A DNA stretch of 40,655 bases from Draconibacterium orientale. GTDB lineage: Bacteria; Bacteroidota; Bacteroidia; Bacteroidales; JAADGE01. The stretch lies in NCBI GenBank assembly GCA_022729995.1, contig DZBS01000016.1:1-40655 (forward strand), read 5' to 3'. The notes beneath the pieces were generated by a model that did no database searches, was not told the DNA's origin, and saw only the letters and a list, made by a program, of their open reading frames with translations. The translations under genes and the position numbers were made by a program. Positions 6,895-39,414 of this stretch are shown piece after piece (position 1 is the stretch's first letter; each line of letters starts with the position of its first letter).

Positions 6895-9800
6895 CTAAAG
6901 TAAATCGGAAATATCTGTTCCTACAAAAATTACTTTATTAACACTACCCGAAATATTTTTAATTCCGGAGAAAGTTCCTTTTTGTTTTGAAACTTTATTG
7001 TTTTTACCAATAATTTCAAAAACACCTTTTATTTGTTCGCCTCGCGATAAATCTCTCCAAAAATGCAGATATTCAATACTGTCTGAATATTCTTCGGTAA
7101 CAAAATCTTTATAGTTTTTACCTATAATTTCATTAATTTGATAATCCAACGATTCGGCAATTACACCGTTTGCTTCTAAAATATTTCCTTTTTCGTCAAA
7201 ATACAAAAGTGAATTACTTTTTTCGAGGAAATTGTTTATTTCAGTAAATTCAAATTTTAACATTTTGAATTTTGATACATTTTCAAGTATTTCTATTATT
7301 TTGATTAAATTATTCTCTTTATCTTTAACAGGCGAATATTTTCCTTTAAAAAATAAATCCTCTCCTTTTGAGTTTATTCTAATAAATTCGCCCGAAATTG
7401 TTTCTCCTTTTCTCAAAGATTCCCAAAAACTTATGTAATCTTTTGATTTCTTTTTATCACTTTCGATAAACATTCTGTGATGTTTTCCTTTTATTTCTTC
7501 AATTTTATAACCAAAAGTAAGGGCAAAATTGTGGTTTGCATTGTCTAAAGTTCCGTCGAGATTGTATGTTGCAATGATGCTTGTATGTTCAATTGTTTCA
7601 AGTTTAATTCCTATTTCAGGGTCTTGAAATAAATATTCTGTAGCTGCGCCGGATATAAATTTTTGTTCTTCGAGTTCTTCTTTTAATTTGTTCAAATCCT
7701 TAATTTTCTCCAAAAGTTCGTTTTCTTGTTCTTTTGATTTTTCAACAGCTTTTTTAAGAATTCTTTCGTTTGCAGTAGATTTTATATTAATTTCTTCAAG
7801 CTGAGCTTGTTTTTTTGCCATTTCGTCTTGAGTTGAATGAAGGACTTCAAGATTTTGACGCATTCGCTCTTCTTGCATCGACATAATTTCTGTTTGCTTT
7901 TTCAGCTCTATTTCAATTTTTTTCGATTCGGAAAAATCGGTTGCCAAACTCAATATTTTCACTACATTTCCGGTATCGTCGAGAATTGCTGCATAAATTA
8001 CCGAAAGCCAATATTCTTTTTCACCCACAAGAATATGTTCAAATCTTTGAACGTGTTGACCTTCTTTCACTGTTAACCAAAAACGGAGATATTCATTTTC
8101 GTCTTCCGGATTAATAAAACTTTGATGTAATGTGTCAACAATTTGACTTTCGGGAATTGCCAATAAATCGAGCAAATTTCGGTTCACCGAAGTAATATAT
8201 CCTTTTGTATCAATTTCAATAACTAATGAAGAATCGTCAATTGCAGAAAGTATACTTGTCATCTCGGCTTCTCTTCTTGCAGAATCTTCTTGTGCTAACT
8301 GAAGTTCTTCAAAATTTCGTCGCATTTCTTGCTCTTGAGCAGCCATTTGCTCGGCTTGAAGTTGCGATTGTTCAAGAAGTTCGGCAGTTCTGGAGTTGAT
8401 TCTGGCAATGGAAAGTGATGCTGCAATATTTTCGGATACTTTTTCTACGAATTCTATTTCATAAGATCGAAATTCGTTGAAAGAAGCAATTTCAATAACT
8501 CCAAAAACTTCATCTTCCACTTTCATAGGAACAATTAACAAACTTCTTGGCGCTGCTCCGCCTAATCCGGACGTAATTGTAATATATGTTTGAGGAATAT
8601 CTGTCATATAAACCGTTTCTTTTTCAACGGCTGCTGTTCCGACTAATCCTTCTCCGGGATAAATTTTCTTTTGCTTTTTCTTTTCGTGACCAAAAGCATA
8701 AGACGAAGTGAGGTCAAAATGAGCATCGTGCGGATCGGAATTATTGAAAATAAATAATCCGGCTTGATTTGCATTTAAAAAATGAACAAGTTTTCTTATT
8801 ACAATATCTGAAAGTTTTTGAATATTTCCGGTGCTTTGACGTAAAATATCATTGAATGTGGCAAGACCTTCGTTTGCCCATTTTCTCATGTCGTCTTCTT
8901 TCTTTCTTTTTTCTTCGTCAATTTTTGCTTGATTAAGATTTTGTCTCATTTCGAGCAACGAGTTGCCAAGTTTATCGTCGGCACTTAGCGGTTGAAATTC
9001 GGTATTAAAAATTCCTTTCCCGAGTGTTATGGCAAATTGAGTAGTTTGTCGAAGACCTGCAACAAGTTCGTTGATACTGTTGTTAATGCTCGACATTTCA
9101 TCTTTGCCGCTTGTTTCATAAACGGTATCCGGAATATTTCCTTTACTAAGCGGAATTAATTTATTTTGAAGTATATTTATAGGTTTTTTAATTGAAAACG
9201 AAAATTGAAGAATAATAAAAACCAATAATAACAGAATTATTAGCGAAATAATATAAATTGAATTATAAACAGCAACAAATACAAAGCTTTTATTGTTGTT
9301 TATTGCCAAAAAAAGTTGTTCAAGTTCGGGTTCTATATTTTGACTTTCGGTTCTTAATTTTCCGTAAAGTCCTTCGTTTAAGGTAAATCCGAGTTCTTTA
9401 TCAATATCAACAAGTGATGTAAAGTATTGTTTGTAATCGTTAAGATTTTTTATTAGAGTGTTGTCATTAACAATAATGTCTCCGGGAATAATTGCAGTGT
9501 CGGGGTTTGTATTTCCCGAATTTAAACTAACATTAGTAAGTTTCATAAAATTATTTATAAAACTTTTGTAATGATTTGAGTTTCGCGAAAATAAATAGTT
9601 ATCGCTGTTTTGTTTAAGTTCAAAAATTATGTTTGATTGACCTGTGTTTTGAGATTGTTTAAGTGTTTGCTCGGAAACATTTATCATATTTCCTATAATT
9701 CCGGAATTTACAGAACCTCTTTGAATTATTTTTTGAACTATCTCTTTGAATAAATCGTTATAAACAATATCAACCTGAGTAATTCTTTCGATATTTTCGG

Positions 9801-10140
9801 TAAGTTTAAGCGTTTTTGTCAGTTTATCGTTTTTTAATAACTCAAGAGATTCGTTAAATTTCTTTTGAGAATCTTCGTGTTTTTTTAAATATTTATTTTC
9901 CTGAGTTGAGAAAAAACCCGGATCGCTGTTATATCCGGAAATAAAATTTTGCTCGAATATTCTTGTATTCAAATAATTAGACTTTAATTCGGCAATATTT
10001 TGTTTATAGGTTTGATAATGTTTTATATTTGAAAGCGTGATTATAAAATATAAAACCATAGCTGTAATAAATGCAACTACAATAGCAATTAAGATATTAA
10101 ATCTTAATCTAATGCTAATATTTCTTATGAATGAAATCAT
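6895..10140 (-). CDS. Membrane sensor with HAMP, GAF and three PAS domains, no kinase domain
   Basis: 1081 residues, the largest of three paralogous sensors here. Membrane segment 1 is at about 14-36 and segment 2 at about 285-312, enclosing a helical extracytoplasmic domain of about 250 residues. Then follow HAMP (about 313-365), a linker (RKWANEGLATF), GAF (about 430-575, with SSYAF, GEGLVG and SGLGGAAPRSLLIVPMK), a coiled coil rich in Gln and Glu (580-625), PAS1 (630-745), a second coiled coil, PAS2 (855-965) and PAS3 (970-1081). PAS3 ends in GTDISDLL, exactly where a HisKA domain would normally begin, and no H-box or ATPase motif is present. It must signal by protein contact or to a separate kinase. 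It is monocistronic and divergent from manA. The ligand is unknown. Confidence 0.9.
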   Translation of the reverse strand: MISFIRNISIRLRFNILIAIVVAFITAMVLYFIITLSNIKHYQTYKQNIAELKSNYLNTRIFEQNFISGYNSDPGFFSTQENKYLKKHEDSQKKFNESLELLKNDKLTKTLKLTENIERITQVDIVYNDLFKEIVQKIIQRGSVNSGIIGNMINVSEQTLKQSQNTGQSNIIFELKQNSDNYLFSRNSNHYKSFINNFMKLTNVSLNSGNTNPDTAIIPGDIIVNDNTLIKNLNDYKQYFTSLVDIDKELGFTLNEGLYGKLRTESQNIEPELEQLFLAINNNKSFVFVAVYNSIYIISLIILLLLVFIILQFSFSIKKPINILQNKLIPLSKGNIPDTVYETSGKDEMSSINNSINELVAGLRQTTQFAITLGKGIFNTEFQPLSADDKLGNSLLEMRQNLNQAKIDEEKRKKEDDMRKWANEGLATFNDILRQSTGNIQKLSDIVIRKLVHFLNANQAGLFIFNNSDPHDAHFDLTSSYAFGHEKKKQKKIYPGEGLVGTAAVEKETVYMTDIPQTYITITSGLGGAAPRSLLIVPMKVEDEVFGVIEIASFNEFRSYEIEFVEKVSENIAASLSIARINSRTAELLEQSQLQAEQMAAQEQEMRRNFEELQLAQEDSARREAEMTSILSAIDDSSLVIEIDTKGYITSVNRNLLDLLAIPESQIVDTLHQSFINPEDENEYLRFWLTVKEGQHVQRFEHILVGEKEYWLSVIYAAILDDTGNVVKILSLATDFSESKKIEIELKKQTEIMSMQEERMRQNLEVLHSTQDEMAKKQAQLEEINIKSTANERILKKAVEKSKEQENELLEKIKDLNKLKEELEEQKFISGAATEYLFQDPEIGIKLETIEHTSIIATYNLDGTLDNANHNFALTFGYKIEEIKGKHHRMFIESDKKKSKDYISFWESLRKGETISGEFIRINSKGEDLFFKGKYSPVKDKENNLIKIIEILENVSKFKMLKFEFTEINNFLEKSNSLLYFDEKGNILEANGVIAESLDYQINEIIGKNYKDFVTEEYSDSIEYLHFWRDLSRGEQIKGVFEIIGKNNKVSKQKGTFSGIKNISGSVNKVIFVGTDISDLL

Positions 10141-10353: not shown

Positions 10354-11325
10354 ATGCTTTATCCGTTAAAATTTAAAAATATTTACAAAGAAAAGATTTG
10401 GGGAGGCTCAAAATTAAAATCTGTTTTGAATAAAAAAGATATTTTTTACGATAATATTGGCGAAAGTTGGGAAATTTCGGGACTTGAAAATAATGTTTCG
10501 GAAATCTCAAACGGTTTTTTGAAAGGAAAATCTTTAATTGAAATTATTGATTCGTATAAAGAAAAAATTATTGGCGGAAAAGTTTTTGCAGAATTTGGAA
10601 ATAATTTTCCGCTTCTTATAAAATTTATTGATGCAAACGACGATTTATCGGTTCAAGTTCATCCGAACGATTTAATTGCAAAAAAACTTCATAATGCAAA
10701 CGGAAAAACAGAATTGTGGTATATTATTGATGTCGATAATGATTCAAATTTAATTTCGGGGCTTAATAAATCTGTTAAAAAAGAAGTTTTTTCCGAAGCA
10801 ATTTCAGAAAACAAAGTTACCGAATTATTGAATTTTGTTCCGGTTTCAAAAGGAGATTCTTTTTTTATTCCGGCAGGAAAAATTCATGCTATTTGCAAAG
10901 GAATTTTACTTGCAGAAATACAGCAAACATCGGACATTACTTATAGAATTTACGATTGGAACAGACCGGATTCCGACGGAAAAATGAGAGAACTTCATAT
11001 TGAAAATTCTCTTTTAGTTGCCGATTTAGAGTATAAAAGCGATTCATTAATTTCTCAAAAAAAAATTGATAGTAATAGAAGCGAAATTAAGAAATGTAAC
11101 TTTTTTACAGTCAACATTTTGAAAACTGATGCAGAAATTAATATTGATTATTCAAATATCGACAGCTTTATAATATATATGTGTGTGGAAGGAGAATTTA
11201 TTATTAAAAACGATAATTTTGAAATAAATGTTATTAAAGGCGAAACGATTTTAATTCCGGCAGAAATAAAAAATTTCGGAATTTTCCCGATTAAAAATTC
11301 CGAAATTCTTGAAATTTATATTTAA
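10354..11325 (+). CDS. manA: Mannose-6-phosphate isomerase, class I type
   Basis: Zinc-dependent cupin that interconverts mannose 6-phosphate and fructose 6-phosphate, feeding GDP-mannose synthesis or mannose use. The 323-residue protein has the four metal ligands expected of the family: Gln101 and His103 in VQVHP, Glu120 in KTELWY, and His178 in AGKIHAI. The active-site segment TYRIYDWNR is also present. It is the short Firmicutes/Bacteroidota form. It stands alone on the plus strand between minus-strand sensor genes, with its own promoter, and ends 6 bases from the convergent 176-residue membrane protein. I see no functional link to the sensors. Confidence 0.94.
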   Translation: MLYPLKFKNIYKEKIWGGSKLKSVLNKKDIFYDNIGESWEISGLENNVSEISNGFLKGKSLIEIIDSYKEKIIGGKVFAEFGNNFPLLIKFIDANDDLSVQVHPNDLIAKKLHNANGKTELWYIIDVDNDSNLISGLNKSVKKEVFSEAISENKVTELLNFVPVSKGDSFFIPAGKIHAICKGILLAEIQQTSDITYRIYDWNRPDSDGKMRELHIENSLLVADLEYKSDSLISQKKIDSNRSEIKKCNFFTVNILKTDAEINIDYSNIDSFIIYMCVEGEFIIKNDNFEINVIKGETILIPAEIKNFGIFPIKNSEILEIYI

Positions 11326-11331
11326 TTCAAT

Positions 11332-11862
11332 TTATATTCCGAAAATTACCGAAGCTTCGGATTTAACAATTTCTATTGCGGATTCAACCGGTTGAGAGTC
11401 GTTTTGAATATATAATTCCATTGCATATTTTGTAAAATCTTGTCCTTTCATTTGCGGATTCATTTGAGTTCCTGCAACATTTATGTTTCTGATAACTTGT
11501 TCTTTTGCGTTTTTAACCGCATTCCACGATTTTTTGCTCAAATATAATTGTTGAGATAAATTGTGATTAAATTCTTTTCTAATTGCTTCGAGCATTGCTA
11601 TTTGCAGTTGTCTGGACGAAATTCCGGGAGTTTGCAATCTGAGAGCCAAAGATTCTATTGTAATTCTTTCCAAGAAAAGCAACATTCTTTCATAAGCTTG
11701 CAAACGAAGCGGTGTAACTAATTTATGATTTTCGCCGAAAGCTGCTACTTTTTGCTTGTTTAAATCGTGTTCGGTAAATTTTTTTACTAACATGTAAACA
11801 ACCACCAAAAGTATAAACGACGGAAGTGTATATTTTAATATTTCTAAAATTTGTATTAGCAT
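11332..11862 (-). CDS. Conserved membrane-anchored protein of unknown function, co-oriented with sensors
   Basis: 176 residues with one N-terminal membrane segment at about 12-28 (YTLPSFILLVVVYMLV), then a cytoplasmic, mostly helical domain. Notable stretches are HKLVTPLRLQAYERMLLFLE and SSRQLQIAMLEAIRKEFNHN, followed by a segment with SKKSWNAVKNAKEQVIRNIN. I recall similar uncharacterised proteins in other Bacteroidota but know no assigned function. It lies 17 bases after the 755-residue sensor gene and is the last gene of a minus-strand run that starts with the histidine kinase at 18212. It may therefore be a membrane partner of that signalling module, though it may simply be co-transcribed. 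No catalytic motif is seen. Confidence 0.75.
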   Translation of the reverse strand: MLIQILEILKYTLPSFILLVVVYMLVKKFTEHDLNKQKVAAFGENHKLVTPLRLQAYERMLLFLERITIESLALRLQTPGISSRQLQIAMLEAIRKEFNHNLSQQLYLSKKSWNAVKNAKEQVIRNINVAGTQMNPQMKGQDFTKYAMELYIQNDSQPVESAIEIVKSEASVIFGI

Positions 11863-11879
11863 TTTGTGATATTTTAATT

Positions 11880-14147
11880 TTATTTTTGAATAAATTCTGT
11901 TACGTCAAAAGCGAAGAAAATAATTCGCAGGACTTTTCCTTCCGAATCTTTATAAGGTGTGTAGGAAGCCGACAAATTTTTAGGTTCGCCGGATTTTGTA
12001 TATCTCACAAGTTGTTTTCTCAATAAATTTCCTTTCTTAACTTCTTCTATTATCTCTTTAAGTTCTGTTATTTGTTCGGCTTTTACAAGTTCAAAAACTG
12101 TTTTTCCCTGCAAATCTTTCAATTCAAATCCCATTGTTTGAAGATACAAATCGTTGGCTGTAAGCAATTGTCCTTCAGGCGTATATTCGATACTCATTAC
12201 TGTATTGTTCACTGCATTTAGCATGCTTTGCATTTCTTTTGAGTGAAAATCGTATTCGGTTTGAATTGATTGAAGTTCTTTTATTTTTTCGTTAAGTTCC
12301 TGTTCTTTATTATATAGTTCAACTGTTTGATTTGTAGATTTTGCCAACAATTCAATAGTTTTAATACTAACAATTGATGAGTTTAACGATGAAGAAATAT
12401 TTTCGGCTGTTTGCTCAATAAATTGTAATTTATGTTTTTCGGGAACGTTTACAAAAGCAATTTCAATAACTCCGAGAACTTCATTGTGCCACATAACCGG
12501 CGTTATAAGTAAATATCCGGGAAGTGCATTTCCTAATCCCGATGAAATATTCATGTAATTTTCGGGAAGTTTGCTAAGTTCAATTTTCTTTTTGGCATAA
12601 ACACAGGCTCCAACAAGTCCTTCGCCGACAGCAAAACTTTTCTCTATAAATTTTTCGCTCGAAAATGCGTAAGATGAAACCAATTCTATTCTTTTATCGG
12701 TTTCGTAATGATGAATGTAAAATCCGCCAAACACAGCATTGGTGTAGTTTACCAGAGTTTTTATAAGATTTAAAGTAAGAGTTTCTAAATTGCTTGTAAT
12801 GAGATTTTGAACTTTTGCTATTTCGGCAAATCCGTTTCTTACCCATTCTTCTATTTCCGAAATTTTTTCATTTTCTTTTTTTTCTATTTCAATATCTTTT
12901 ATTTTTTGAATAATTTGTCCAACCAAAATACTTAATTCGTCGTTTACATTTTCATTTTTTTCAATTGAATTGTAATCTCCTTCAATTATTTTTTTACTCA
13001 CCTTTATATATTCAAGGTTTTTTTCATATATTTTTTTAAGATTTTCGTCAATTATATTTATTTCGTTAACATTACTTTTATTTTGAAAATCGGTATTTTT
13101 TCCGCTTGCAACATTTATAGACCTTTCAACTGTTTCATTAAATTTTTCGTCGAACTTTTTTGTTAAATAATTTATAAATAGAATAGAAAAAATGTAAACA
13201 ATAATTATCAATATAATATTGTAACGAGTGTTAATTAATATTTGTTTTGAAAATTCGCGTAAAGGTGTAAAATTGTAGATTTTCCAATAATTATCGGAGT
13301 TTTCGGGATTTATTATTTGTGTGGTGTAAACGTAGCCGCCAAAAGTTCCGTTTGCCGGTTTTCCGTTAATTTTTTCAAATAATTGCTTTTCGGTGCCTTC
13401 AATTTCCGAAATGTTTTTTGTTTTATTCCAATCTTTTCCGGTGAAACTTATTATGTTATTTTTTTCGCTTAGAAGTATTTTTATAGTGTTCAGTCGATTT
13501 TTATTCGTATAAATTATTTGTTCAAACTTTTTTGGATTGAAAGCTATTCCTATAATTCCCAAGAATTTATCGCCTGAATAAACAGGAAAAAATATTTTAA
13601 TTATTTCTAAATCTTTTCCGAATATTTCTTGGTTTTTTGGTTCATCAACAATAATATTTTTATTTTTCTTTATCTTATAAAAAAGTGTAGGATTAATTAT
13701 TTTATCAAAATTTGAATTTGTTTCTTCAATATTAATTTCGCCTTTATTTTTGGAATAAATTATTGATTTATAATAAACGGTATCGGTTTTTCTTGTTTGA
13801 AGCGAGTCGTTATAAAATTTAATTTCCGGCGGTCTGACAAGAATAATTTTTTCGATATTTTCATTCAAAAGAGAGTTTTTCCAAAATTCGTTGTTTTCTT
13901 TTTGAATGTATTCAGAACTGAAATTCTCGGATAAAACTTGAAGTATTTTGAAGTTTTTATTTAGCTCGTTTGAAATTTTTTCGGCATCTAATTCGGTTGA
14001 ATAAATACTGAATTTTAAATCTTCTTTTTTGGCATTATTATATGAAAACAGTAAAATTAATATAATTACAAGTGTAAAAATTGCCGTTAAAACTATTATT
14101 GAATAGCTTGATATTATTGATTTTATGTTATTAAAAGATAATTTCAT
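11880..14147 (-). CDS. Membrane sensor with Cache-like, GAF and PAS domains, no kinase domain
   Basis: 755 residues. Membrane segments at about 15-36 and 308-328 flank an extracytoplasmic domain that looks like a double Cache fold (FFPVYSGDKFLGIIGIAF). A HAMP-like linker (to about 435) leads to GAF (about 450-590, with SSYAF, VGEGLVG, SGLGNALPG and VLGVIEIAF), a coiled coil (about 595-635) and one PAS (about 640-755, MSIEYTPEGQLLTAND and KNLSASYTPYKDSEG). It ends in FDVTEFIQK with no HisKA or ATPase domain. The GAF-coiled-coil-PAS half is clearly paralogous to the 769- and 1081-residue sensors, while the sensor half is different, so the inputs probably differ. It starts 13 bases after the 769-residue sensor gene and is followed 17 bases later by the 176-residue membrane protein. 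Confidence 0.9.
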   Translation of the reverse strand: MKLSFNNIKSIISSYSIIVLTAIFTLVIILILLFSYNNAKKEDLKFSIYSTELDAEKISNELNKNFKILQVLSENFSSEYIQKENNEFWKNSLLNENIEKIILVRPPEIKFYNDSLQTRKTDTVYYKSIIYSKNKGEINIEETNSNFDKIINPTLFYKIKKNKNIIVDEPKNQEIFGKDLEIIKIFFPVYSGDKFLGIIGIAFNPKKFEQIIYTNKNRLNTIKILLSEKNNIISFTGKDWNKTKNISEIEGTEKQLFEKINGKPANGTFGGYVYTTQIINPENSDNYWKIYNFTPLREFSKQILINTRYNIILIIIVYIFSILFINYLTKKFDEKFNETVERSINVASGKNTDFQNKSNVNEINIIDENLKKIYEKNLEYIKVSKKIIEGDYNSIEKNENVNDELSILVGQIIQKIKDIEIEKKENEKISEIEEWVRNGFAEIAKVQNLITSNLETLTLNLIKTLVNYTNAVFGGFYIHHYETDKRIELVSSYAFSSEKFIEKSFAVGEGLVGACVYAKKKIELSKLPENYMNISSGLGNALPGYLLITPVMWHNEVLGVIEIAFVNVPEKHKLQFIEQTAENISSSLNSSIVSIKTIELLAKSTNQTVELYNKEQELNEKIKELQSIQTEYDFHSKEMQSMLNAVNNTVMSIEYTPEGQLLTANDLYLQTMGFELKDLQGKTVFELVKAEQITELKEIIEEVKKGNLLRKQLVRYTKSGEPKNLSASYTPYKDSEGKVLRIIFFAFDVTEFIQK

Positions 14148-14160
14148 TTATAAAATTATA

Positions 14161-16470
14161 TTATTTTTGATATTCTTCGTAAAGTAACGAACCAATTGAC
14201 AAAACTCTATATATTCTTCCAATTGAATTTCTAATTGGTGCATAAATATTTAAGAATGTATATTGTTCTTTTTCAACCAAATAAATTTTTTCGGTTCTTT
14301 CTTCGGAATCGCCGTTTTTTAAATCTTTCCACATAGATTTATATGTTTCCGAATAGTTTTTATCTTTTATAAGTTCCGAATGCGAAATACCTATTAATTC
14401 ATTTGCTTCAACTCCCAAAAGATTTGTATATTTTTCATTTACATCAACAATTTTTCCGGTTAAGTCAAATTCGATAACAAAAGCAGACATTTTTATTGAT
14501 TTTATAATTTCTGTAATTTCAATAAGACTTTTATCCAGTTTTCGGTTTTGTCGTCTGTGTGTATCAATTTTTTCCTGTAATTCGGTTCTTTGTGTATTTA
14601 TAAGTTTTGCTTGATGTTGTGTTTGTTCTAAAAGTTTTTGAGTTTGTTGTCGGTTATAAATACTTGCAAATGTTGATGCAATATTTTCGCCAATTCTTTC
14701 AACAAATTCTATTTTAAAATTTTCTATTATTTTTATTGAAGCAAGTTCAATAACGGCTTGAACTATATTATTGAAAATCAATGGAATTATTACAATTGAT
14801 TTTGGGTCGGTGTGTCCAAATCCGGATTTTATTTTGGTGTAATCTTCGGGAATTTCGGTTATAAAAATGCTTTGTTTTTCCATAAAACATCTGCCTACAA
14901 GCCCCGAATTTGCTTTAATTGTTTTACTTTTTACTTTTTCTTCGCTGAATGCGTAATTTGCCGACATTTGAAGAAATATATCTTCCGTATTTTCTCTGTT
15001 TACAACAAATATTGCTCCCATTTCTATTTCCAAAAATCCTATTATTTTCTTTAATAACGACATTGAAAGTGAATTCAAATTATTGTCGTGTTGCAAAATT
15101 GCGGAAACTTCAAAGGCTCCTTCATTTAATTTTTCTCTCAATTCGTTTTCAGAACTTTGTGCCTTATGAATTTCTATAATATTGGAAATATTTTTATGTA
15201 ATTTTAAAAAATAATTATTCAAATTGTTTTGGGTTTCAGGAAATTCAACAAAATTTCTTTCATTATATAAACTAATTTTTCCGAGTATTTCTTGAATTTC
15301 TTTTTTATCGTTATAAACTTGATTCAAATTTTTGTTTACATTTAATTTGAACCCGAATAATCTTATTTCTTTATCCGGAGAAAAATTTCCCAATATTAAC
15401 AAATTTAGCCTTTTTGCTATTTTCTTTTCCACATTATTTACCGAAAACATTACTAAACTCATTAATATTATAAAAAATACGAAAAGTATTGTAAACAATA
15501 TTATTAAGTTTCTTTTAACTTTTATTAATCCGTTTTGCGTTGTTTGATTTGAATATATTAAACAAGAATATCCGTCGAGCGAATTAACTTTTTCAAAATA
15601 TATTGTATTTTTTGAAAGTTCGTTTTGTTCAATTGTTTCATAATTAATATATCCCGAATTTTTTGTTTTCATATTTCTAAATTCTTCCGAGAATTTAAAA
15701 TTTTCGTCGATTCCGGTGTTAAAAACAAAGTTTCCGTCTGTATTTATAAAAAACAGTTGATATCCTTCGCTAATAATATCTTCGGAATAAATTTTCGACA
15801 ATGAAGCTTTAACTCCTTCATAAACTGTTACTTGAATTATTGCACTAATGTAACCGTCGAAATATAAAGGACTGTAAACCGAAAGTTTTGAATCGAACTT
15901 AATATTTTTTTGCTCAAAATATTTTTCACCTTTTTCAACAGTTTGAACAACAGGATTTGAATTATCAATAAATAATATACTGTTTGGCGTACTATTATCC
16001 GACAACTCATTGGAAACTATTCTCAAATATCCGTCGTCTGTTTTTTGCCAAATACTTATAAATGAATTAGATGTGTGAGTAATTTTATCTACCAATTCTC
16101 TGTTTCCTAAAATAATATTATTTCCAAAAATTAATGAAGGAATTTTCTTTTTAAAACTTTCGCCCGATTGTTCTATAACGGCTTCAATAACAGAAGAATC
16201 TTGAGCCGAAAAATTAAATCGGCTTATTGTTTTAATAAAATCAAGCGAAATTCTTTCGGCAACGGTAAGTTTATTTTTTGAATTATTATCTATAACTTTC
16301 AAAATATTTGAAAATTCCGATAATTTGTTTTCAAAATAAATTTCAAATTTTTCGTTTGTATTCTTTTCTACAAATTTGTATGTGTAAATGCCCGATAGAA
16401 GAAACACTCCTAAAATTATAAAAATTAAAGATAAATATATAATTAAACTATATTTTTTATAAAACTTCAT
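14161..16470 (-). CDS. Membrane sensor with Cache, GAF and PAS domains, no kinase domain
   Basis: 769 residues. Membrane segments lie at about 8-30 and 321-345. The extracytoplasmic part has the pattern of a Cache_3-Cache_2 sensor (ISIWQKTDDGYLRIVSN, then NPVVQTVEKGEKYF, then VYSPLYFDGYISAIIQV), a class that usually binds small organic ligands. The cytoplasmic part has a long linker, GAF (about 455-605, SANYAFSEEK, SGLVGRC and KSGFGHTDPKS), a coiled coil and one PAS (about 655-769) ending in LLYEEYQK. No transmitter domain follows. It is the second gene of the run that begins with the soluble kinase at 18212, separated from it by 83 bases that hold a possible internal -7 box. The paralogy with its two neighbours suggests gene duplication with exchange of the sensor half. 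Confidence 0.9.
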   Translation of the reverse strand: MKFYKKYSLIIYLSLIFIILGVFLLSGIYTYKFVEKNTNEKFEIYFENKLSEFSNILKVIDNNSKNKLTVAERISLDFIKTISRFNFSAQDSSVIEAVIEQSGESFKKKIPSLIFGNNIILGNRELVDKITHTSNSFISIWQKTDDGYLRIVSNELSDNSTPNSILFIDNSNPVVQTVEKGEKYFEQKNIKFDSKLSVYSPLYFDGYISAIIQVTVYEGVKASLSKIYSEDIISEGYQLFFINTDGNFVFNTGIDENFKFSEEFRNMKTKNSGYINYETIEQNELSKNTIYFEKVNSLDGYSCLIYSNQTTQNGLIKVKRNLIILFTILFVFFIILMSLVMFSVNNVEKKIAKRLNLLILGNFSPDKEIRLFGFKLNVNKNLNQVYNDKKEIQEILGKISLYNERNFVEFPETQNNLNNYFLKLHKNISNIIEIHKAQSSENELREKLNEGAFEVSAILQHDNNLNSLSMSLLKKIIGFLEIEMGAIFVVNRENTEDIFLQMSANYAFSEEKVKSKTIKANSGLVGRCFMEKQSIFITEIPEDYTKIKSGFGHTDPKSIVIIPLIFNNIVQAVIELASIKIIENFKIEFVERIGENIASTFASIYNRQQTQKLLEQTQHQAKLINTQRTELQEKIDTHRRQNRKLDKSLIEITEIIKSIKMSAFVIEFDLTGKIVDVNEKYTNLLGVEANELIGISHSELIKDKNYSETYKSMWKDLKNGDSEERTEKIYLVEKEQYTFLNIYAPIRNSIGRIYRVLSIGSLLYEEYQK

Positions 16471-16481
16471 ACACTTTATGA

Positions 16482-16489
16482 CAAATTTA
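16482..16489 (-). promoter_or_regulatory. Possible internal -7 box before the 769-residue sensor gene
   Basis: The minus strand reads TAAATTTG, an exact TAnnTTTG match 11 bases before the ATG at 16470, in the 83-base gap after the kinase gene. No good -33 TTG is found at normal spacing, and the short distance would give a nearly leaderless transcript. Weak call in such AT-rich sequence. Confidence 0.25.
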
Positions 16490-16553
16490 ATCTGCTAAAT
16501 TAAAAAAATTATTATAAAAATTTAATTTTTTTATGCCGATATTTTAATCCTTT

Positions 16554-18212
16554 TTAATTTACGGGAATTACAACTGTTATTGATGTTCCTTTATTTATTT
16601 CGCTTTTTATAGAAATTTCTCCTTTGTGCCTTTCAACAAATTCTTTACATAATATAATTCCAAGTCCCGAACCTTTTTCGTTGTTTGTTCCGTAAGTCGA
16701 AAAATGTTCGGTTGTATTAAATATTTTCACCAAATTTTCTTTTTCAATTCCTATTCCGTTATCTTCAACGATAAGTTCTATGTAATTCTTGTTTGATTTT
16801 ACAAAATCGTTAATAATAATTTTGATATTTCCGTTTTCGGGTGTAAATTTTATTGAGTTAGAAATTAAATTCCTCACAATTGTGTTAAGCATATTTTCAT
16901 CGGCAAAAAGTGTAAATTCTTTAACCGGATTGTGCGAAACTGTAAGGTTTTTTCGGTAAAAATTTGGTGTGAAAAGTGAAATATTTTCTTCAACAATTTC
17001 ATTTAACGAAAGCTCTTCGGGTCTGAAAACTATTCTTCCGCTTTGGCTTTTTGCCCATTCAAAAAGGTTTGCAAGTAAATTAAAAACCGAATCTGACGAT
17101 TCTCTTAATGTTTCAATAAAATCGCGAACTTCGTCTCTGTTTAGTTCATCGTATTCTTCTATTAACAAATCAAGTGCGTTTTTTAAATTGCCCACAGGTC
17201 CTCGCAAATCGTGACCAATTATTGAAAACATTTTATCTTTTGTATCGTTTGTGCTTCTTAAAAGTTCGGCTTGGCTGTTTATTTGAACATTTTGTTCGGT
17301 TAATTGAAGCAAAGCTTTTTCAAGTTCTATTGTTTGATTTTCAAGCTCTTGATTTTGTTCTGTTATTAATCTTTCTGCTTCTTTTTGTTCGCTTATATCT
17401 GTTGAACTGATAAGAACAACTTCGTTTGTATCAATCCAATATATTTTACTTGCAGTTACTTGATACCATCTTTTTGTTTCAGGCTCAAAATATTCATGGT
17501 CAACAGTTTCAAAAATTTCTTTGCTGTTGAGTTTTTCTTTTATATAGAAATTTAATAAAATTTTGTTTCTCTTTTCAATTTCTTTTTCCGATTTGTTTTC
17601 TTTATCGTAAAATAAATTCATTGCATTTCGGTTCAAAAAGATAATATTTTCGTTAATCGGGTCAATAACAAATATTAATTCGTTAACATTATCGGTTACT
17701 TTCTGAAAAATATCGTAGCCTTTAAATATTGCATTTTCAACTTGCCTTTGTTCGGTAATATCTTCTATTAAAGCAAGTCCGCAAATTTCATTTTCATTAA
17801 TATTTATTTTTTTTGTTTTAATTGAAACTAATAATTCGGGTAAATTTGTATTTATATTATAATTTCCTTCAAAAAAACTTTCGTGTCCAACCAATGCTTT
17901 CTCAAAAGTTTGAACAAGCATTTCGTCGGAAAAATCTCTTAAACTATAATTCTCGTTATTATTTTCCTTAATATTCAGAATTTCTTTACCTTTATTATTT
18001 ATATAAAAAACATGCAAATCTTTGTTATATAAAAAAAGACCGATGTTTAAATTATCATACAAAAAAAACCTGCTTTTATGTTCAAAATCTATACTTTCGT
18101 TTACCGATAAATTATCTTTTTCATATTTATTTTTATAAAATTGAATTTCTTTCAACAATTTATCATTTTCTTCGGAAAGACTTTTTACTTTTGCACTTAA
18201 TTCAGAGTTCAT
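16554..18212 (-). CDS. Soluble PAS-PAS histidine kinase
   Basis: 552 residues with no membrane segment. An N-terminal coiled coil (1-35) leads to PAS1 (about 50-155, ending EDITEQRQVENA), PAS2 (about 165-275, ending STDISEQKEAER), a Gln/Glu-rich coiled coil (275-320), HisKA with the phospho-acceptor His334 in IGHDLRGP, and HATPase_c with N-box (NLISNSIKFTP), G1 (VEDNGIGIE) and G2 (GSGLGIILCKEF). All catalytic boxes are intact. No response regulator gene is adjacent. It leads a minus-strand run followed by two membrane sensors lacking kinase domains and a small membrane protein, which suggests that the sensors could act on this kinase in trans. That link is inference from gene order. Confidence 0.93.
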   Translation of the reverse strand: MNSELSAKVKSLSEENDKLLKEIQFYKNKYEKDNLSVNESIDFEHKSRFFLYDNLNIGLFLYNKDLHVFYINNKGKEILNIKENNNENYSLRDFSDEMLVQTFEKALVGHESFFEGNYNINTNLPELLVSIKTKKININENEICGLALIEDITEQRQVENAIFKGYDIFQKVTDNVNELIFVIDPINENIIFLNRNAMNLFYDKENKSEKEIEKRNKILLNFYIKEKLNSKEIFETVDHEYFEPETKRWYQVTASKIYWIDTNEVVLISSTDISEQKEAERLITEQNQELENQTIELEKALLQLTEQNVQINSQAELLRSTNDTKDKMFSIIGHDLRGPVGNLKNALDLLIEEYDELNRDEVRDFIETLRESSDSVFNLLANLFEWAKSQSGRIVFRPEELSLNEIVEENISLFTPNFYRKNLTVSHNPVKEFTLFADENMLNTIVRNLISNSIKFTPENGNIKIIINDFVKSNKNYIELIVEDNGIGIEKENLVKIFNTTEHFSTYGTNNEKGSGLGIILCKEFVERHKGEISIKSEINKGTSITVVIPVN

Positions 18213-18341: not shown

Positions 18342-19610
18342 ATGAGCATTACATTTATTATAACAATTATTGCAATTACGCTGGTTTTTTCCGCATTTTT
18401 TTCGGGAATGGAAATTGCCTACATTACTGCAAATAAATTCCGAATCGAATTAGACAAAAAACAAAATTTAATGTCGTCAGGAATTATTAAAATTTTTACT
18501 AAAAATCCAGGTCAATATATTGCTACAATGCTTGTTGGCAACAATGTTGCTCTTGTAGTTTACGGTTTATATTTTGCCAAACTTTTGGAACCATATATTC
18601 TTCAATATATTACGCAAAGTTCGGGTTGGGCTGTTTTAATTCAAACAATTGTGTCAACAATATTAATACTTGTTACAGCAGAATTTCTTCCAAAAACTAT
18701 TTTCAGACAAAGCTCAAACTTTTTTTTGAATATTTTTGCTGTTCCTGTTTTTATATTTTACATACTTTTTTTCCCTATTGCAAAATTTACAGTTATTTTC
18801 TCAAACGCAATTATTAAATTATTTTTTAAAACAAATATTAAAACTCCCGAAAATATTACATTCGGAAGAATGGATTTAAACAATTTTCTTACTGTTGCCG
18901 AAAACGAAAATAAAAATTCCGATGACATTGAAAATGAGGTAAAAATATTTAAAAACGCATTATATTTTTCAAAAATAAAAGTGCGTGAATGCTTCGTGCC
19001 GCGAAACGAAATTATTGCTGTTGATATTGATGACAGTATAGACGATGTTAAAGAAATTCTTATTAAAACTAAAGTCTCCAAAGTTCTTGTTTATAAAGAC
19101 AGTATCGACAATATTATCGGATATGTTCACACTTTTGATATTTTTAAAAAACCAAAATCAATAAAAGCTGCATTAAACAAAATTATTGTTGTTACCGAAA
19201 CTATGCCTGTTAATAAACTTCTTAACCAATTTATTCAATCACATCACAGCTTAGCTTTGGTTGTTGATGAGTTTGGAGGAACTTCCGGAATTGTTACAAT
19301 GGAAGATATTATTGAAGAAATTATCGGCGAAATTGAAGACGAACACGATGTTGACGAAAATTTAGACAATAAAATTTCCGAAAACGAATTTATGCTTAGC
19401 GGAAGAATTGAAATTGATTATTTAAACGAAAAATACAATTTGCAAATTCCCGATTCTCATAACTACGAAACAATTGCCGGATTAATTTTAAATATTCACG
19501 AACAAATTCCCGACAAAGGACAAATTATTCAATCCGGAAACCTTAAATTTGAAATTATTAAAGTTGAAGGTCCTAAAATAAAAAAAGTAAAACTTACAAT
19601 TATTGATTAA
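18342..19610 (+). CDS. CNNM/CBS-pair membrane protein (CorC/HlyC, hemolysin-like; GldE relative)
   Basis: 422 residues. The N-terminal CNNM (DUF21) domain (about 1-190) has several membrane segments and the typical opening FFSGMEIAYITANKFRIE and VGNNVALVVYG. A CBS pair follows (about 205-325, VRECFVPRNEIIAVD and VVDEFGGTSGIVTMEDIIEEIIGEI), then a CorC/HlyC C-terminal domain (about 340-420, SENEFMLSGRIEIDYLNE). Family members bind adenine nucleotides and are implicated in Mg2+ homeostasis; the relative GldE is linked to gliding and type IX secretion in some Bacteroidota. No gld or por genes are nearby, so I do not use that name. It is the first gene of a tight plus-strand run, with only 2 bases before the next start. 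Confidence 0.88.
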   Translation: MSITFIITIIAITLVFSAFFSGMEIAYITANKFRIELDKKQNLMSSGIIKIFTKNPGQYIATMLVGNNVALVVYGLYFAKLLEPYILQYITQSSGWAVLIQTIVSTILILVTAEFLPKTIFRQSSNFFLNIFAVPVFIFYILFFPIAKFTVIFSNAIIKLFFKTNIKTPENITFGRMDLNNFLTVAENENKNSDDIENEVKIFKNALYFSKIKVRECFVPRNEIIAVDIDDSIDDVKEILIKTKVSKVLVYKDSIDNIIGYVHTFDIFKKPKSIKAALNKIIVVTETMPVNKLLNQFIQSHHSLALVVDEFGGTSGIVTMEDIIEEIIGEIEDEHDVDENLDNKISENEFMLSGRIEIDYLNEKYNLQIPDSHNYETIAGLILNIHEQIPDKGQIIQSGNLKFEIIKVEGPKIKKVKLTIID

Positions 19611-28337: not shown

Positions 28338-29993
28338 TTAGAAGAAATCAATGTCGCCGTAATCGTCTTGTATTTTAACTCCGAGAACCAAGACATCGTC
28401 AAGTTGTTTTATGCCGTCTCGCCATGTTTCAAACGTTTCAAAAAGCATTTCTTTTTGTTTGTACATCGGTTCGGAACTTATATTTAACAATAATTTTTGA
28501 AATCTGTTAATTTTAAATTTTTGATTTTTATCACCTCCAAATTGATCCATATATCCGTCGGATAAAAGATACAAAATATCATTTGTTTGTAATTGAATTT
28601 TATGATTTGTAAAAGCTCTTTCGTTAACATAAACTCCAACGGGCATTCTGTCGGGTTTAACAATAATTAATTCGGGATTTCCTTTGTCGGCGTTTCTGAT
28701 AATATAAAGCGGAATATTTGCGCCGGAATATTGAACTTCTTTTTTTTCTATATCAATAATACAAAGCGACATATCCATTCCGTCGGAACTTTTTCCTCTT
28801 GCATGTTCTTGATGTAGAGAAGCTTTTACTCGTTTTCTTAGTTCATTAAGAACATCGTTTGCGTGCGGTCTTTTGTCGAGTCTCACAATTTCGTTTAACA
28901 AAGCAACTCCGAGCATACTCATAAATGCGCCGGGAACTCCGTGTCCGGTGCAATCTGCTGCTGCAACAGCAATAAAATTATTTACTTGTTTTATCCAATA
29001 AAAATCGCCGCTAACAATATCGCGAGGAATGTAAAGAATAAAATTTTCGGGTATAAATTGCTTTATAAATATTGAGCTGGGCAAAACTGCTTGCTGAATA
29101 AACTGTGCGTATCTTATACTCGATGTAATATTTTTATTTATTTTTTCGAGTTGATTTTTTTGAACTTCAAGTTCTTCTTCTGTTGAAATATTTCTATAAA
29201 TTCCTTCAATTGCAATTAAATCTCCGTCTTTATTAAAAGTTCCTTTGTTTGCTTGAATTATCCATCTTTCGTTTCCTTCGGGGTCAATAATTTTGTATTT
29301 CAAAGTTGGAGCAACGCCCCAATCTGTTTCCAAACTATTTTCATAATATTCTACAAAATCGGGATGAAGTATTTTATTGATAAAAAAAGGAGTTTTATAA
29401 AAGCTGTTTTTCGAATATCCGAAAACTTTCATTGCCGCAGGGCTGATATATTCATATTGTCCGTCGGGAAACGACATTCTAAATACTGCATCGCTCAATC
29501 CGGTAATTAGTCCGCTATATTTTCTTTCGCTTTCAACAAGTTCTTTTTCGGCTTTTTTTCTTATTGATATTTCTAATTTCAGTTGTTCGTTTTGCTTTTG
29601 AATTAAATCTCCGGAATGTTTTAATTCTAAATGAGTTCTGACTCTTGCCAGAAGTTCTTTTATCTTAAAAGGTTTTGTAATATAATCAACAGCACCTAAA
29701 TCAAAACCTCTTATTATATCTTCGGTTCGGTCTTTTCCGGTAAGAAATATTATTGGAATATCTCTTGTTTGTTCGTCGTTTTTTAAAATTTCGCACACTT
29801 CAAATCCGTCTTGAACAGGCATAATTATGTCAAGAAGAATTAAATCGGGTTTGTGTAACAGTACTTGTTTAATTGCTTCTTTACCGTTTTCTGCTTTTAT
29901 AACCTCAATATTTTCTTCTGACAATAAATCTTCCAAAACCATTAAATTGGCTTCAATATCGTCAACTATCAATAATTTTGCTCCGTTTTTCAA
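28338..29993 (-). CDS. Response regulator with REC, PAS and PP2C (SpoIIE) phosphatase output
   Basis: 551 residues. REC (1-125) has the acidic pair Asp11-Asp12 and phospho-acceptor Asp55 in LLDIIMPVQDG, with the conserved Lys in DYITKPF. A coiled coil (130-155) leads to PAS (about 155-285, YISPAAMKVFGYS) and a PP2C phosphatase of the SpoIIE/RsbU type (about 290-545) with motifs RDIVSGDFYW, ADCTGHGVPGAFMSMLG, SSDGMDMSL and YLLSDGYMDQFGG, so the metal-binding aspartates are intact. Such enzymes dephosphorylate anti-sigma-factor antagonists or related Ser/Thr phosphoproteins in response to a kinase. No antagonist or anti-sigma gene is adjacent. The start is TTG (29991-29993): the frame has no ATG before the stop upstream, and MKNGAKLLIVDD is the normal REC opening. 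Confidence 0.93.
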   Translation of the reverse strand: MKNGAKLLIVDDIEANLMVLEDLLSEENIEVIKAENGKEAIKQVLLHKPDLILLDIIMPVQDGFEVCEILKNDEQTRDIPIIFLTGKDRTEDIIRGFDLGAVDYITKPFKIKELLARVRTHLELKHSGDLIQKQNEQLKLEISIRKKAEKELVESERKYSGLITGLSDAVFRMSFPDGQYEYISPAAMKVFGYSKNSFYKTPFFINKILHPDFVEYYENSLETDWGVAPTLKYKIIDPEGNERWIIQANKGTFNKDGDLIAIEGIYRNISTEEELEVQKNQLEKINKNITSSIRYAQFIQQAVLPSSIFIKQFIPENFILYIPRDIVSGDFYWIKQVNNFIAVAAADCTGHGVPGAFMSMLGVALLNEIVRLDKRPHANDVLNELRKRVKASLHQEHARGKSSDGMDMSLCIIDIEKKEVQYSGANIPLYIIRNADKGNPELIIVKPDRMPVGVYVNERAFTNHKIQLQTNDILYLLSDGYMDQFGGDKNQKFKINRFQKLLLNISSEPMYKQKEMLFETFETWRDGIKQLDDVLVLGVKIQDDYGDIDFF

Positions 29994-35966: not shown

Positions 35967-38708
35967 ATGAAAACGAACGAGGAATTAAAAACAGAAATAG
36001 ATTTTTTAAAGAAATCCAATAAATTATTGGAAGAACAAATAAAAAAATTTAAAAAAGAATCAAAAAAGAAAGAAAAAAAACTTAGAGAAACGTGTGAATT
36101 TTATATTGGTAAAATAGCTTTAAAACCCGATGAACTTTTCAAGATTTTTGAAAACATGCCTCAACCTGTTTTAATAACCGAATATGAAACAGGAAAAATA
36201 ATTTATCTGAATAAACATCTTGAAAACTTAATGGGACATTCTTTTGATGAGGTAAAAGGAAAAACCTCTTTTGAATTGGGCTTAAACAAAAAGCAAATAA
36301 GAAATAAAATTATTGAAGGACTTGAAAATGAAGAAACTGCTTGCGTTGTTCCAATATCATTTACAAATAAAAATTTGCAAAAATATCATACATTGATTTA
36401 TTCTAAATTGATAAATAATAAAAAAGAATTTATTTTATCTATAATTATTGATATTTCGGAAGCACATAAAGTAAAAAAAGAATTAAAAGAAAGTAAAGAA
36501 TTTTATGAAAATATAATCGACAATACAATTGATGCAATATATGTTTTGTCGAAAAAAGGAAAGATAAAATTTGCTAACAATCAGCACTTTAATGTATTCG
36601 GAAGACAAGAAAAAGAAATTATAGATCATTATTTTTACGAATTTATCCCTAAAAAAGAATTACCGGTTTTTTTATCAATATTAAAAAAAGGTTCTTTAGA
36701 AAAAGAAATAAGGAACTTTGAGTCAAATATTTACCATAAAAACGGAAGTTTAGTTCCTGTTGAAATAAGCGGAAAACTGGTTAAGTATAATAATAAAAAC
36801 ATAATAATTGCAAATATTACCAACATTTCGGAGAAAAAACTCGCCGAAAATATACTCAAAGAAGACACAAAAAAGTTTCAGCTAATTACAGAATCGGGAA
36901 TAGATTCATTGTTTATGGTTGATAAAAACGCAAATATAATTTTTGTAAGCAAATCGCAAAAAAACCAATACGGCTGGGTTCCCGAAGAAATTGAAGGTGA
37001 AAGTATATTTAAAATTATTTCGCCCGGAAATCTTAATTATTTAAAAGAACAAATGTTGGAAGTATTCAAAGATACGGAAATAAGTTTTGAGTCGGAAATA
37101 GTGCATAAAACAGAAGGAAATATTCCTGTAGAAATTAGGGCTAAAACAGTTATTTTCAAAGGAGAAAAAGTTGCCGTTGGAGTAATGAGAAATATTAGCG
37201 AAAAAAAATCAGAAGAAAAGAAAAAAGCTGCATTACTTTTAGAAACAATTTCTACCAGAAATTTTTTAAGGTCGATAATTGATTCAACCAAAGACATGAT
37301 TTTTGCAAAAGACCAATTCGGAAAATATGTTATTGTGAATAAATCATACTCGGAAGCATTTAGCCTTGAGCCGAAAGATTTGATTGATAAAACAGATAAT
37401 GATTTAATGGAAATATTATTTTGCAGAGCCAAAAATATTGAATTTGGAATTTTTGAACTCCAAAAAATTGGAAATACATTAAAAGAAAGAGAAAAATACA
37501 CTTCATTCTACAATAAAATAATAATGCCCGACGGTGTTGAGAAAATATTTCAAACCAGCAAAATTAATATTTACACCGAAAATAACATTTTTGAAGCATC
37601 AATATTTTTTGCACACGATATAACCAGAATGATAAGAGCTGAAGATGAACTTATTAACATGAATTTGAATTTGGAAAAAATAATAGAAGAAAAAACAAAA
37701 AAACTTGTAATTAGCGAAGATAATTTTAGAAAACTTTACGAAAAAAGCTCGGAAGCCAAAATAATTTTCAAAAAAGACGGTAATATTTTGGATATAAATG
37801 AAAATGCTTGTCTAATTTTTGGATATACAAAACATGAATTTTTAAAACTTAATGTAAAAAATTTATGGAAAATTGACTCATCGCAAACATTTACAGACAC
37901 AATAAATTCATATAAAACAATAGAAACAACAATTTACACAAAAGATTCAAAGCAAATTCCTTACGAAACAAGTTTTATAAACGTGAAATATTTCAATGAA
38001 AATGCAATTCTTGCTTCCGGAAGAGATATTAGAGAAAGAAAAGAAATTCAGAAAAAAATATTAAATGCTATAACAGAAACCGAAGAAAAAGAAAGAAAAA
38101 GATTTGCTGCCGATATTCACGACGGAATTGGCGCAAATTTATCAAGCATTAAAATGTATATAGATTTAATTTTAGAAGAACAAATTCCTAAAGAAGACAC
38201 AAAAAAATTCTTAGTTTCTATTATTGATATAATAAACGAAGCAGCGAGGCAAGCCAGAGAAATTGCCAATAACATTAAACCTCACGAACTTACAAATTTG
38301 GGATTAAAATCGTCTATCGAAAATGTATTTAAAAAAATCATTAAAACCAATAAAATTAAGGCTTTTACCGATATTCAAACAAATGATATTAAACTTAACG
38401 AAAATTTTTCATTAACAATTTACAGAATAGTTAATGAACTGATAAACAATTCAATAAAACATTCAAACGCAAAAAATATTTACCTAAATTTATATATTTT
38501 GCCCGACAGATTAGAAATGGAATATAAAGACGACGGAGACGGTTTTGATATAGAAAAAATTACTTCGGAAAAACTTGGAAACGGAATTACAAATATCAAA
38601 AACAGAATTAAACAAGTGAACGGCGAAATTGACATCTTTTCGGAAATTGGCACCGGAACAGAAATAAAAATTAATGTGAACACTAAAGATTTTATTGAAG
38701 AAAATTAA
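35967..38708 (+). CDS. Soluble histidine kinase with five PAS domains (NarX/DegS-type HisKA_3)
   Basis: 913 residues with no membrane segment. An N-terminal Lys-rich coiled coil (1-40) leads to five PAS modules at about 45-165, 170-290, 300-415, 430-565 and 580-695 (openings such as MPQPVLITEYETG, TIDAIYVLSKKG, GIDSLFMVDKNA, TKDMIFAKDQFG and EAKIIFKKDG). The transmitter is the HisKA_3 type: acceptor His in RFAADIHDGIGANLSSIK (about residue 718), then HATPase_c with ELINNSIKHSNAKNI, KDDGDGFD and LGNGITNIKNRIKQVNG. This kinase class pairs with NarL/LuxR regulators, and one follows 52 bases downstream (38761), making a clear two-component operon. Signal unknown; cytoplasmic input is implied. Confidence 0.94.
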   Translation: MKTNEELKTEIDFLKKSNKLLEEQIKKFKKESKKKEKKLRETCEFYIGKIALKPDELFKIFENMPQPVLITEYETGKIIYLNKHLENLMGHSFDEVKGKTSFELGLNKKQIRNKIIEGLENEETACVVPISFTNKNLQKYHTLIYSKLINNKKEFILSIIIDISEAHKVKKELKESKEFYENIIDNTIDAIYVLSKKGKIKFANNQHFNVFGRQEKEIIDHYFYEFIPKKELPVFLSILKKGSLEKEIRNFESNIYHKNGSLVPVEISGKLVKYNNKNIIIANITNISEKKLAENILKEDTKKFQLITESGIDSLFMVDKNANIIFVSKSQKNQYGWVPEEIEGESIFKIISPGNLNYLKEQMLEVFKDTEISFESEIVHKTEGNIPVEIRAKTVIFKGEKVAVGVMRNISEKKSEEKKKAALLLETISTRNFLRSIIDSTKDMIFAKDQFGKYVIVNKSYSEAFSLEPKDLIDKTDNDLMEILFCRAKNIEFGIFELQKIGNTLKEREKYTSFYNKIIMPDGVEKIFQTSKINIYTENNIFEASIFFAHDITRMIRAEDELINMNLNLEKIIEEKTKKLVISEDNFRKLYEKSSEAKIIFKKDGNILDINENACLIFGYTKHEFLKLNVKNLWKIDSSQTFTDTINSYKTIETTIYTKDSKQIPYETSFINVKYFNENAILASGRDIRERKEIQKKILNAITETEEKERKRFAADIHDGIGANLSSIKMYIDLILEEQIPKEDTKKFLVSIIDIINEAARQAREIANNIKPHELTNLGLKSSIENVFKKIIKTNKIKAFTDIQTNDIKLNENFSLTIYRIVNELINNSIKHSNAKNIYLNLYILPDRLEMEYKDDGDGFDIEKITSEKLGNGITNIKNRIKQVNGEIDIFSEIGTGTEIKINVNTKDFIEEN

Positions 38709-38760
38709 TTCTAATTAAAACATTATCATAAATTTACAAACCGATTTTTTCAAAAAAAAG

Positions 38761-39414
38761 ATGTATAAACATAAAGTGATTATTGTTGACGACCACCATA
38801 TTTTTAGAGACGGACTAAAACTTTCTCTCGGTACAATCAAAAGTATTGAAGTTGTTAACGAAGCAAAATGTGCAACAGAATTCTTAAATATTATAAAAAA
38901 TACTAAAATTGATATTGCTTTTATGGATATCAGAATGCCCGATATGAACGGAATTGAAGCTACTATTGAAGCTCTTAAAATTTCTCCCGACTTGAAAATA
39001 ATTATTATGTCATCTTATGACGACATTGAAATTATTAACAACGCAATTATTGCCGGAACTTACGGTTATTTATTAAAAAATGCCGATTATAAAGATATTA
39101 TTAACGCAATAGAAACAGTGTCGAAAGGTAAAAAATATTTTTCTCACGAAATTATAGAAAATATTACTTCACAAATTATTGACGAAAACAATAAAAAATC
39201 CGAATCAGAAAACACTCCCAATTATAATCTTACTTTCAGAGAAACTCAAGTGCTTAAAGAACTTTGCAACGGCGATGATTCAAAACTAATTGCAAAAAAA
39301 CTTAATATCAGCGAACGTACAGTCGAAAAACATATTCAAAATATTTTGTCAAAAACAAACATTCACACCACAACAAAACTTATAGTATTTTGTCTTAAAA
39401 ACAAACTTGTTTAA
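38761..39414 (+). CDS. NarL/LuxR-type response regulator
   Basis: 217 residues. REC (1-120) has Asp10-Asp11, phospho-acceptor Asp56 (FMDIRMPDMNG), Ser/Thr at SSYDD and Lys in GYLLKNA. A linker (KGKKYFSHEIIENI) leads to a LuxR-type HTH at about 152-217: LTFRETQVLKELCNG, KLIAKKLNISERTVEKHIQN and ILSKTNIHTTTKLIVF. It is complete and should bind DNA as a dimer when phosphorylated by the five-PAS kinase encoded just upstream. A candidate target is the direct repeat at 35865-35898, which would give control of the divergent double-receiver gene and possibly autoregulation. It ends 6 bases from the convergent rpe gene. Confidence 0.95.
   Translation: MYKHKVIIVDDHHIFRDGLKLSLGTIKSIEVVNEAKCATEFLNIIKNTKIDIAFMDIRMPDMNGIEATIEALKISPDLKIIIMSSYDDIEIINNAIIAGTYGYLLKNADYKDIINAIETVSKGKKYFSHEIIENITSQIIDENNKKSESENTPNYNLTFRETQVLKELCNGDDSKLIAKKLNISERTVEKHIQNILSKTNIHTTTKLIVFCLKNKLV

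Follow-up and report, generated by a model that had tools for sequence, protein, structure and literature searches.

A conserved gene trio of a soluble histidine kinase and two kinase-less membrane receptors in Bacteroidales, with possible control of the kinase in trans

The locus discussed here raises the question of whether membrane receptors that have no kinase of their own can hand their signal to a soluble histidine kinase encoded next to them. It lies in a window of 40,655 nucleotides (the whole stretch of DNA that was analyzed) from Draconibacterium orientale, in which a first-pass annotation had described a row of four minus-strand genes with gaps of 83, 13 and 17 bases. The open reading frames and the gaps are found just so, and the features of the region are the following.

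16554..18212, minus strand: soluble histidine kinase, first gene of the trio; PAS-PAS-HisKA-HATPase_c, 552 aa, short N-terminal coil (Pfam, orthologue alignment)
14161..16470, minus strand: sensor A, membrane receptor; Cache_3-Cache_2, TM, GAF, long coil, PAS; without output domain (Pfam, AlphaFold)
11880..14147, minus strand: sensor B, membrane receptor; PDC-like sensor, TM, GAF, coil, PAS; without output domain (Pfam, alignment)
11332..11862, minus strand: DUF7935 (PF25589) protein; one N-terminal TM helix and a helical domain, 176 aa (Pfam)
18342..19610, plus strand: GldE-like CNNM-CBS-CorC_HlyC protein, divergent from the kinase gene (NCBIfam, below cut-off; Pfam)
10354..11325, plus strand: manA, class I mannose-6-phosphate isomerase, convergent with the DUF7935 gene (TIGR00218, 156 bits)
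6895..10140, minus strand: sensor C, third kinase-less receptor; HAMP-GAF-3xPAS, 1081 aa, with a form of the Q/E-rich coil motif (Pfam)

Sensor C, which lies just beyond manA, was absent from the first-pass annotation. The remark that no response regulator is adjacent is borne out: the nearest receiver-domain gene found starts at 28338, and none of the receiver genes of the window (28338, 35022 and 38761) adjoins the trio. The first of them (28338-29993) encodes a receiver-PAS-SpoIIE protein of 551 aa and has PhoU_div and PHO4 phosphate transport genes as neighbors, and at 35967-39414 the plus strand encodes a multi-PAS HisKA_3 histidine kinase and, behind it, a LuxR-type response regulator.

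The kinase is indeed a soluble PAS-PAS protein with its catalytic boxes. Pfam recognizes two PAS regions, HisKA (E 2e-7) and HATPase_c (E 2e-25), and the H box (H334) as well as the D-x-G-x-G and G-x-G-x-G motifs of the ATP site are invariant in the 18 orthologues of an 18-row alignment. With Pfam scores over the cut-off and invariant motifs, the 552-aa protein is a histidine kinase of the HisKA type, and it is not a split histidine kinase, since HisKA and HATPase_c are both on the same polypeptide. In having all parts and invariant catalytic motifs it is like a classical two-component sensor kinase (PAS-HisKA-HATPase_c), from which the trio differs by having its membrane sensing parts on two proteins of their own and no adjacent response regulator.

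Each of the sensors A and B is a membrane protein that combines an extracytoplasmic sensor with GAF, coil and PAS and has no kinase, in agreement with the earlier description (Pfam, and an AlphaFold model of A). Sensor A (769 aa) is matched by Cache_3-Cache_2, GAF_2 and PAS, and sensor B (755 aa) by GAF_2 and PAS, while the extracytoplasmic domain of B is named by Pfam, as a weak PDC match, only in the orthologue of G298. In the Pfam scans HisKA and HATPase_c are absent from both proteins, as is a C-terminal SpoIIE/PP2C domain, so that they are not SiaA-like phosphatases; nor are they MCP chemoreceptors, because MCPsignal (PF00015) finds no match in either at E 0.1. The model of sensor A (22-row alignment, mean pLDDT 82) shows TM1, a Cache-like domain, TM2, a linker, the GAF domain, a helix of 79 residues (584-662) and the PAS domain. 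The latter ends at residue 762 of 769, the model stopping at the last PAS strand, and there is thus no output helix after it. A fold search gave meaningful matches at the level of domains only, namely the sensor domain of a formate-binding chemoreceptor, GAF and PAS. It had been stated that A and B end exactly where HisKA would begin, which is a fair account of their ends; however, they are not local truncations, since no orthologue runs on into a kinase, and the orthologues of A likewise end after a PAS domain. A reading of the two as truncated kinase genes was rejected for this reason and because the receptor family described below contains no kinase. In G305 and G297 the match to sensor A contains one stop each, according to the search output.

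The arrangement of the three genes is conserved well beyond the window. At E <= 1e-60 the kinase has matches in 19 of the 21 genomes of the GTDB family and sensor A likewise in 19, and on the contigs that were read the two genes are adjacent on one strand in 17 of the 21, covering five genera (G000, G298, G104, G288, G204, G304, G307, G308, G300, G303, G301, G309, G305, G296, G306, G297 and G311). Sensor B comes next in 15 of the 17; in G306 and G311 the contig ends. The full trio is therefore found in four genera, the contig ending in the fifth. Many of the compared genomes are fragmented assemblies. In G302 and G295 the genes stand at contig ends, which fits a broken trio, and G299, 70% complete, has a partial kinase match only. 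In the 13 trios measured, the kinase-A gaps range from -14 to 184 bases and the A-B gaps from -134 to 115, mostly below 20, and most gaps are overlaps or at most 15 bases long; these figures use the first possible starts, so that the large overlaps may be artifacts. In 13 genomes of the family the kinase gene has a divergent gldE-like gene as its neighbor, at a distance of 81-129 bp where measured. It is missing in G296 and G297, and the order of the trio survives in the genera g186 and g187, which lack this neighbor. Of the four-gene operon suggested earlier, the kinase-A-B part consequently stands, with the same order and strand and mostly short or overlapping gaps, but the DUF7935 gene is located elsewhere outside the genus. 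A conserved trio is as expected if the kinase, A and B act together.

The kinase appears to be the newer member. A search of the contigs with it returns mostly kinase-domain relatives, in Bacteroidales and others, and full-span matches to its non-catalytic part are confined to the GTDB family of the window; elsewhere in the order this part gives none but partial, PAS-level matches. A-like and B-like genes in tandem without the kinase occur in five genomes of other families (G062, G036, G255, G055 and G167), which were searched with the full kinase too. Since the full-span matches outside the catalytic part lie only in the family, the most economical history would have an older A-B pair acquire the kinase at the base of the family. 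In one family genome, G310 (97% complete), there is neither a kinase orthologue nor B, and the best kinase hit covers the kinase domain only. Sensor A is followed there directly, with no gap, by a 719-aa Tll0287-GAF-SpoIIE membrane protein in the place of B (L159:3535-7986). From its gene content, G310 looks as if the output partner had been exchanged.

On balance, we lean toward a reading of these gene arrangements in which the paralogous A-B receptor pair regulates the recruited soluble kinase in trans, the three genes constituting a signaling operon. Because the receptors have no kinase of their own and the gene trio is conserved, their signal probably goes to the separate kinase. The two paralogous receptors would bind different extracytoplasmic ligands and probably act as a functional pair. 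The signal would pass via their GAF-coil-PAS parts to the soluble kinase of the same operon, the contact most likely being made through the coil or the PAS, presumably in the direction from the receptors to the kinase, which would in turn phosphorylate an unlinked response regulator.

Control in trans is supported by the conserved trio, whose order is kept where the gldE neighbor is absent, by the joint absence of the kinase and B in G310, and by the unusual conservation of the coil of A, which is the most conserved part of the protein (pairwise identity 0.71, compared to 0.56 for GAF, 0.47 for PAS and 0.27 for the sensor). What speaks against it is that G310, although without a kinase orthologue, keeps this coil just as well, and that in G296, where a kinase orthologue is present, the coil is different. 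The evolutionary rates of A and B covary beyond the gldE control (partial r 0.79), whereas the covariation of the kinase with the sensors is gone after this control (partial r -0.22 for A and 0.06 for B, with ten taxa). The rates thus support a coupling between A and B and not between the kinase and the sensors. Also to be weighed against control in trans are the two PAS domains of the kinase, which might sense alone, and the absence of histidine kinases immediately next to the relatives of A and B.

These relatives are numerous. Sensor A has relatives in 155 of the 295 genomes of the order, and the genome of the window itself contains about ten places paralogous to it. Among 111 sampled members in 80 regions, 102 are without an output domain and the other nine have SpoIIE; a kinase is found in none, and a lax repeat of the search altered nothing of substance. 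The sampled loci lean to closer relatives of sensor A, having been picked from its best matches, and the kinase, SpoIIE and receptor calls in them come from profiles built from the window proteins, Pfam having been used only for directly scanned proteins. Judged by domain content, A and B belong to a large Bacteroidales family of kinase-less GAF-coil-PAS receptors, which we define here by a TM sensor, GAF, a long coil, PAS and no kinase. A pairing of such sensors with a histidine kinase as a general rule does not extend to the wider order: among the 120 same-strand neighbors within 200 bases of the receptors, none is a histidine kinase, compared to 22 of 844 for other genes, and 42 of the 120 are other sensors. 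A general association of the receptors with histidine kinases was rejected on this count. By the same sampling, the closest output link of the family is the SpoIIE phosphatase, seen in the nine fusions.

This link gives weight to an alternative in which A and B act on another output, a branch of SpoIIE-type phosphatase and SiaB-SiaC partner switching such as their relatives have, the kinase being merely co-expressed and sensing through its own PAS domains. It would account for a family that is fused to SpoIIE in 9 of 111 members and to a kinase never, for the row of a receptor, a GAF-PAS-SpoIIE protein, DUF6272 and SiaC in the genome of the window, for the GAF-SpoIIE protein that follows A in G310, and for kinase and sensor rates that do not covary beyond the control. 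It does not easily explain why the kinase-A-B order is kept across genera and why the one near-complete genome that lost B is also without a kinase orthologue, and there is no SpoIIE gene in the trio. We consider this alternative a serious one, albeit rather doubtful.

The fourth gene of the row has a different distribution. Its 176-residue product, described earlier as membrane-anchored and of unknown function, does have the membrane helix, but it also has a family name, being a member of DUF7935 (PF25589, 184 bits against a cut-off of 27). Of 198 Bacteroidia genomes, 178 have a member, almost always one copy only, and 20 of the 21 genomes of the GTDB family have it as a single copy; a few families of the order (f60 and f105) lack it. 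A model of the protein is all helical (pLDDT 93), and a fold search with it found no match below E 0.2 and none that is convincing. The gene adjoins sensor B only in the genus of the window (g1) and is unlinked to the trio in the other genera of the family. At 12 loci of genus g2 it belongs to another block, in which it is convergent with manA, with sensor C on the far side of manA, some of these loci running into contig ends. This block stands directly beside the trio in the window, and in G298, the sole other genome examined of the genus, the DUF7935 gene lies 22 bases after B and manA is not there. Since the gene sits in a different block in g2 and beside B only in g1, the four-gene row is, as far as gene order tells, a genus-level juxtaposition with DUF7935 as a passenger, and the four-gene operon was rejected as a conserved unit because DUF7935 is unlinked outside the genus. 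A four-gene module with DUF7935 as a working membrane partner of the sensors would agree with its position after B in both genomes of the genus (17 and 22 bases) and with a row that persists although the identity of the four proteins between these genomes is only 35-64% and one of them has lost the link to manA; such a module is nevertheless improbable, as nearly every Bacteroidia genome has DUF7935, those without a trio included, and no other genus of the family shows a link of its gene to the trio. That A and B are functionless, degenerate remnants of one-time sensor kinases, as their want of any known output domain might suggest, is very improbable indeed, given frames that are open at full length in most genomes, conserved GAF, coil and PAS parts, and a large family that is kinase-less throughout.

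If the kinase is regulated in trans, the trio would be a receptor-kinase split outside chemotaxis, genetically compact with its three genes, and would provide the first output for some members of a large Bacteroidales receptor family for which no mechanism was found in the literature searched. The locus also shows that one receptor gene can have a kinase as its neighbor in some genera and a phosphatase in another. The searches on kinase-less GAF-PAS sensors, on DUF7935 and on CheR/CheB without CheA in Bacteroidetes found nothing on point.

Several known systems share part of this layout. In split histidine kinases one signaling unit is likewise spread over several polypeptides, but in CheA3-CheA4 of Rhodobacter sphaeroides (PMC3591291) and in Hik36-Hik43 (PMC7656254) the catalytic parts themselves are split, while in the trio HisKA and HATPase_c stay on one protein and the separation concerns the receptors only. 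Chemoreceptor-CheA systems have the layout proposed for the trio, with kinase-less membrane receptors acting on a soluble kinase; A and B, however, lack the MCP signaling domain, the trio kinase is of the HisKA and not the CheA type, and 13 genus-g2 relatives are without CheW and MCPs altogether. In the multikinase network of GacS with RetS (PMC5992135), one kinase receives the input of several sensors through direct contact. A convergence on one kinase is also what we propose for the trio, but the sensors of that network are kinases and A and B are not. As to the SiaABCD partner switching of Pseudomonas aeruginosa (PMC7647112), relatives of A and B adjoin a SpoIIE-type phosphatase, DUF6272 and SiaC, whereas the trio has a histidine kinase and none of the Sia parts.

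Receptors of the family are also members of conserved gene clusters that encode CheR, CheB, a small GAF protein, a GAF-PAS-SpoIIE protein, DUF6272, which we take to be the SiaB family, and SiaC. The cluster runs CheR, kinase-less receptor, CheR, CheB, GAF, GAF-PAS-SpoIIE, DUF6272 (SiaB type), SiaC in several Bacteroidales families (L227, L228, L229, L231, L242, L247 and L140:2877-9179), and in the genome of the window it is split over two contigs. All 21 genomes of the GTDB family encode CheR, including the 13 of genus g2 that have no CheW or MCPsignal match, and the CheR-CheB-small GAF row is conserved in all seven of the latter that were examined (rows at L277-L285 and L145:4333-8486). CheR and CheB probably have another target in genus g2, given that neither CheW nor MCPsignal is matched there; the genome of the window does carry MCPs and CheW.

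A candidate for methylation is the coil behind the GAF domain, in which a Q/E-rich motif, QAEEL-AQEEEMRQN-EELQATQEE, is found in 86 of 125 other receptor segments and in none of the 38 A segments and 21 B segments; sensor C carries a form of it. The motif is common but not universal and hence not a required feature of the family; the coil that bears it is a possible methylation region. Tentatively, one may picture a chemosensory-like system without CheA, CheW or MCPs, in which the non-MCP receptors of Bacteroidales would have an exchangeable output (a recruited histidine kinase here, SpoIIE with SiaB-SiaC elsewhere) and CheR/CheB would methylate the Q/E-rich coils of most members, A and B not among them. 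Three kinase-less receptors in tandem are seen in L157:7293-18113, L196 and L203, and in L157 and L196 a hybrid kinase and a gene for 239 aa, YgjP-like in the former, precede the tandem. At L245:4554-12518, a protein of 2654 aa combines one GAF-type receptor match with many repeated coil-PAS segments that have the QEEE motif.
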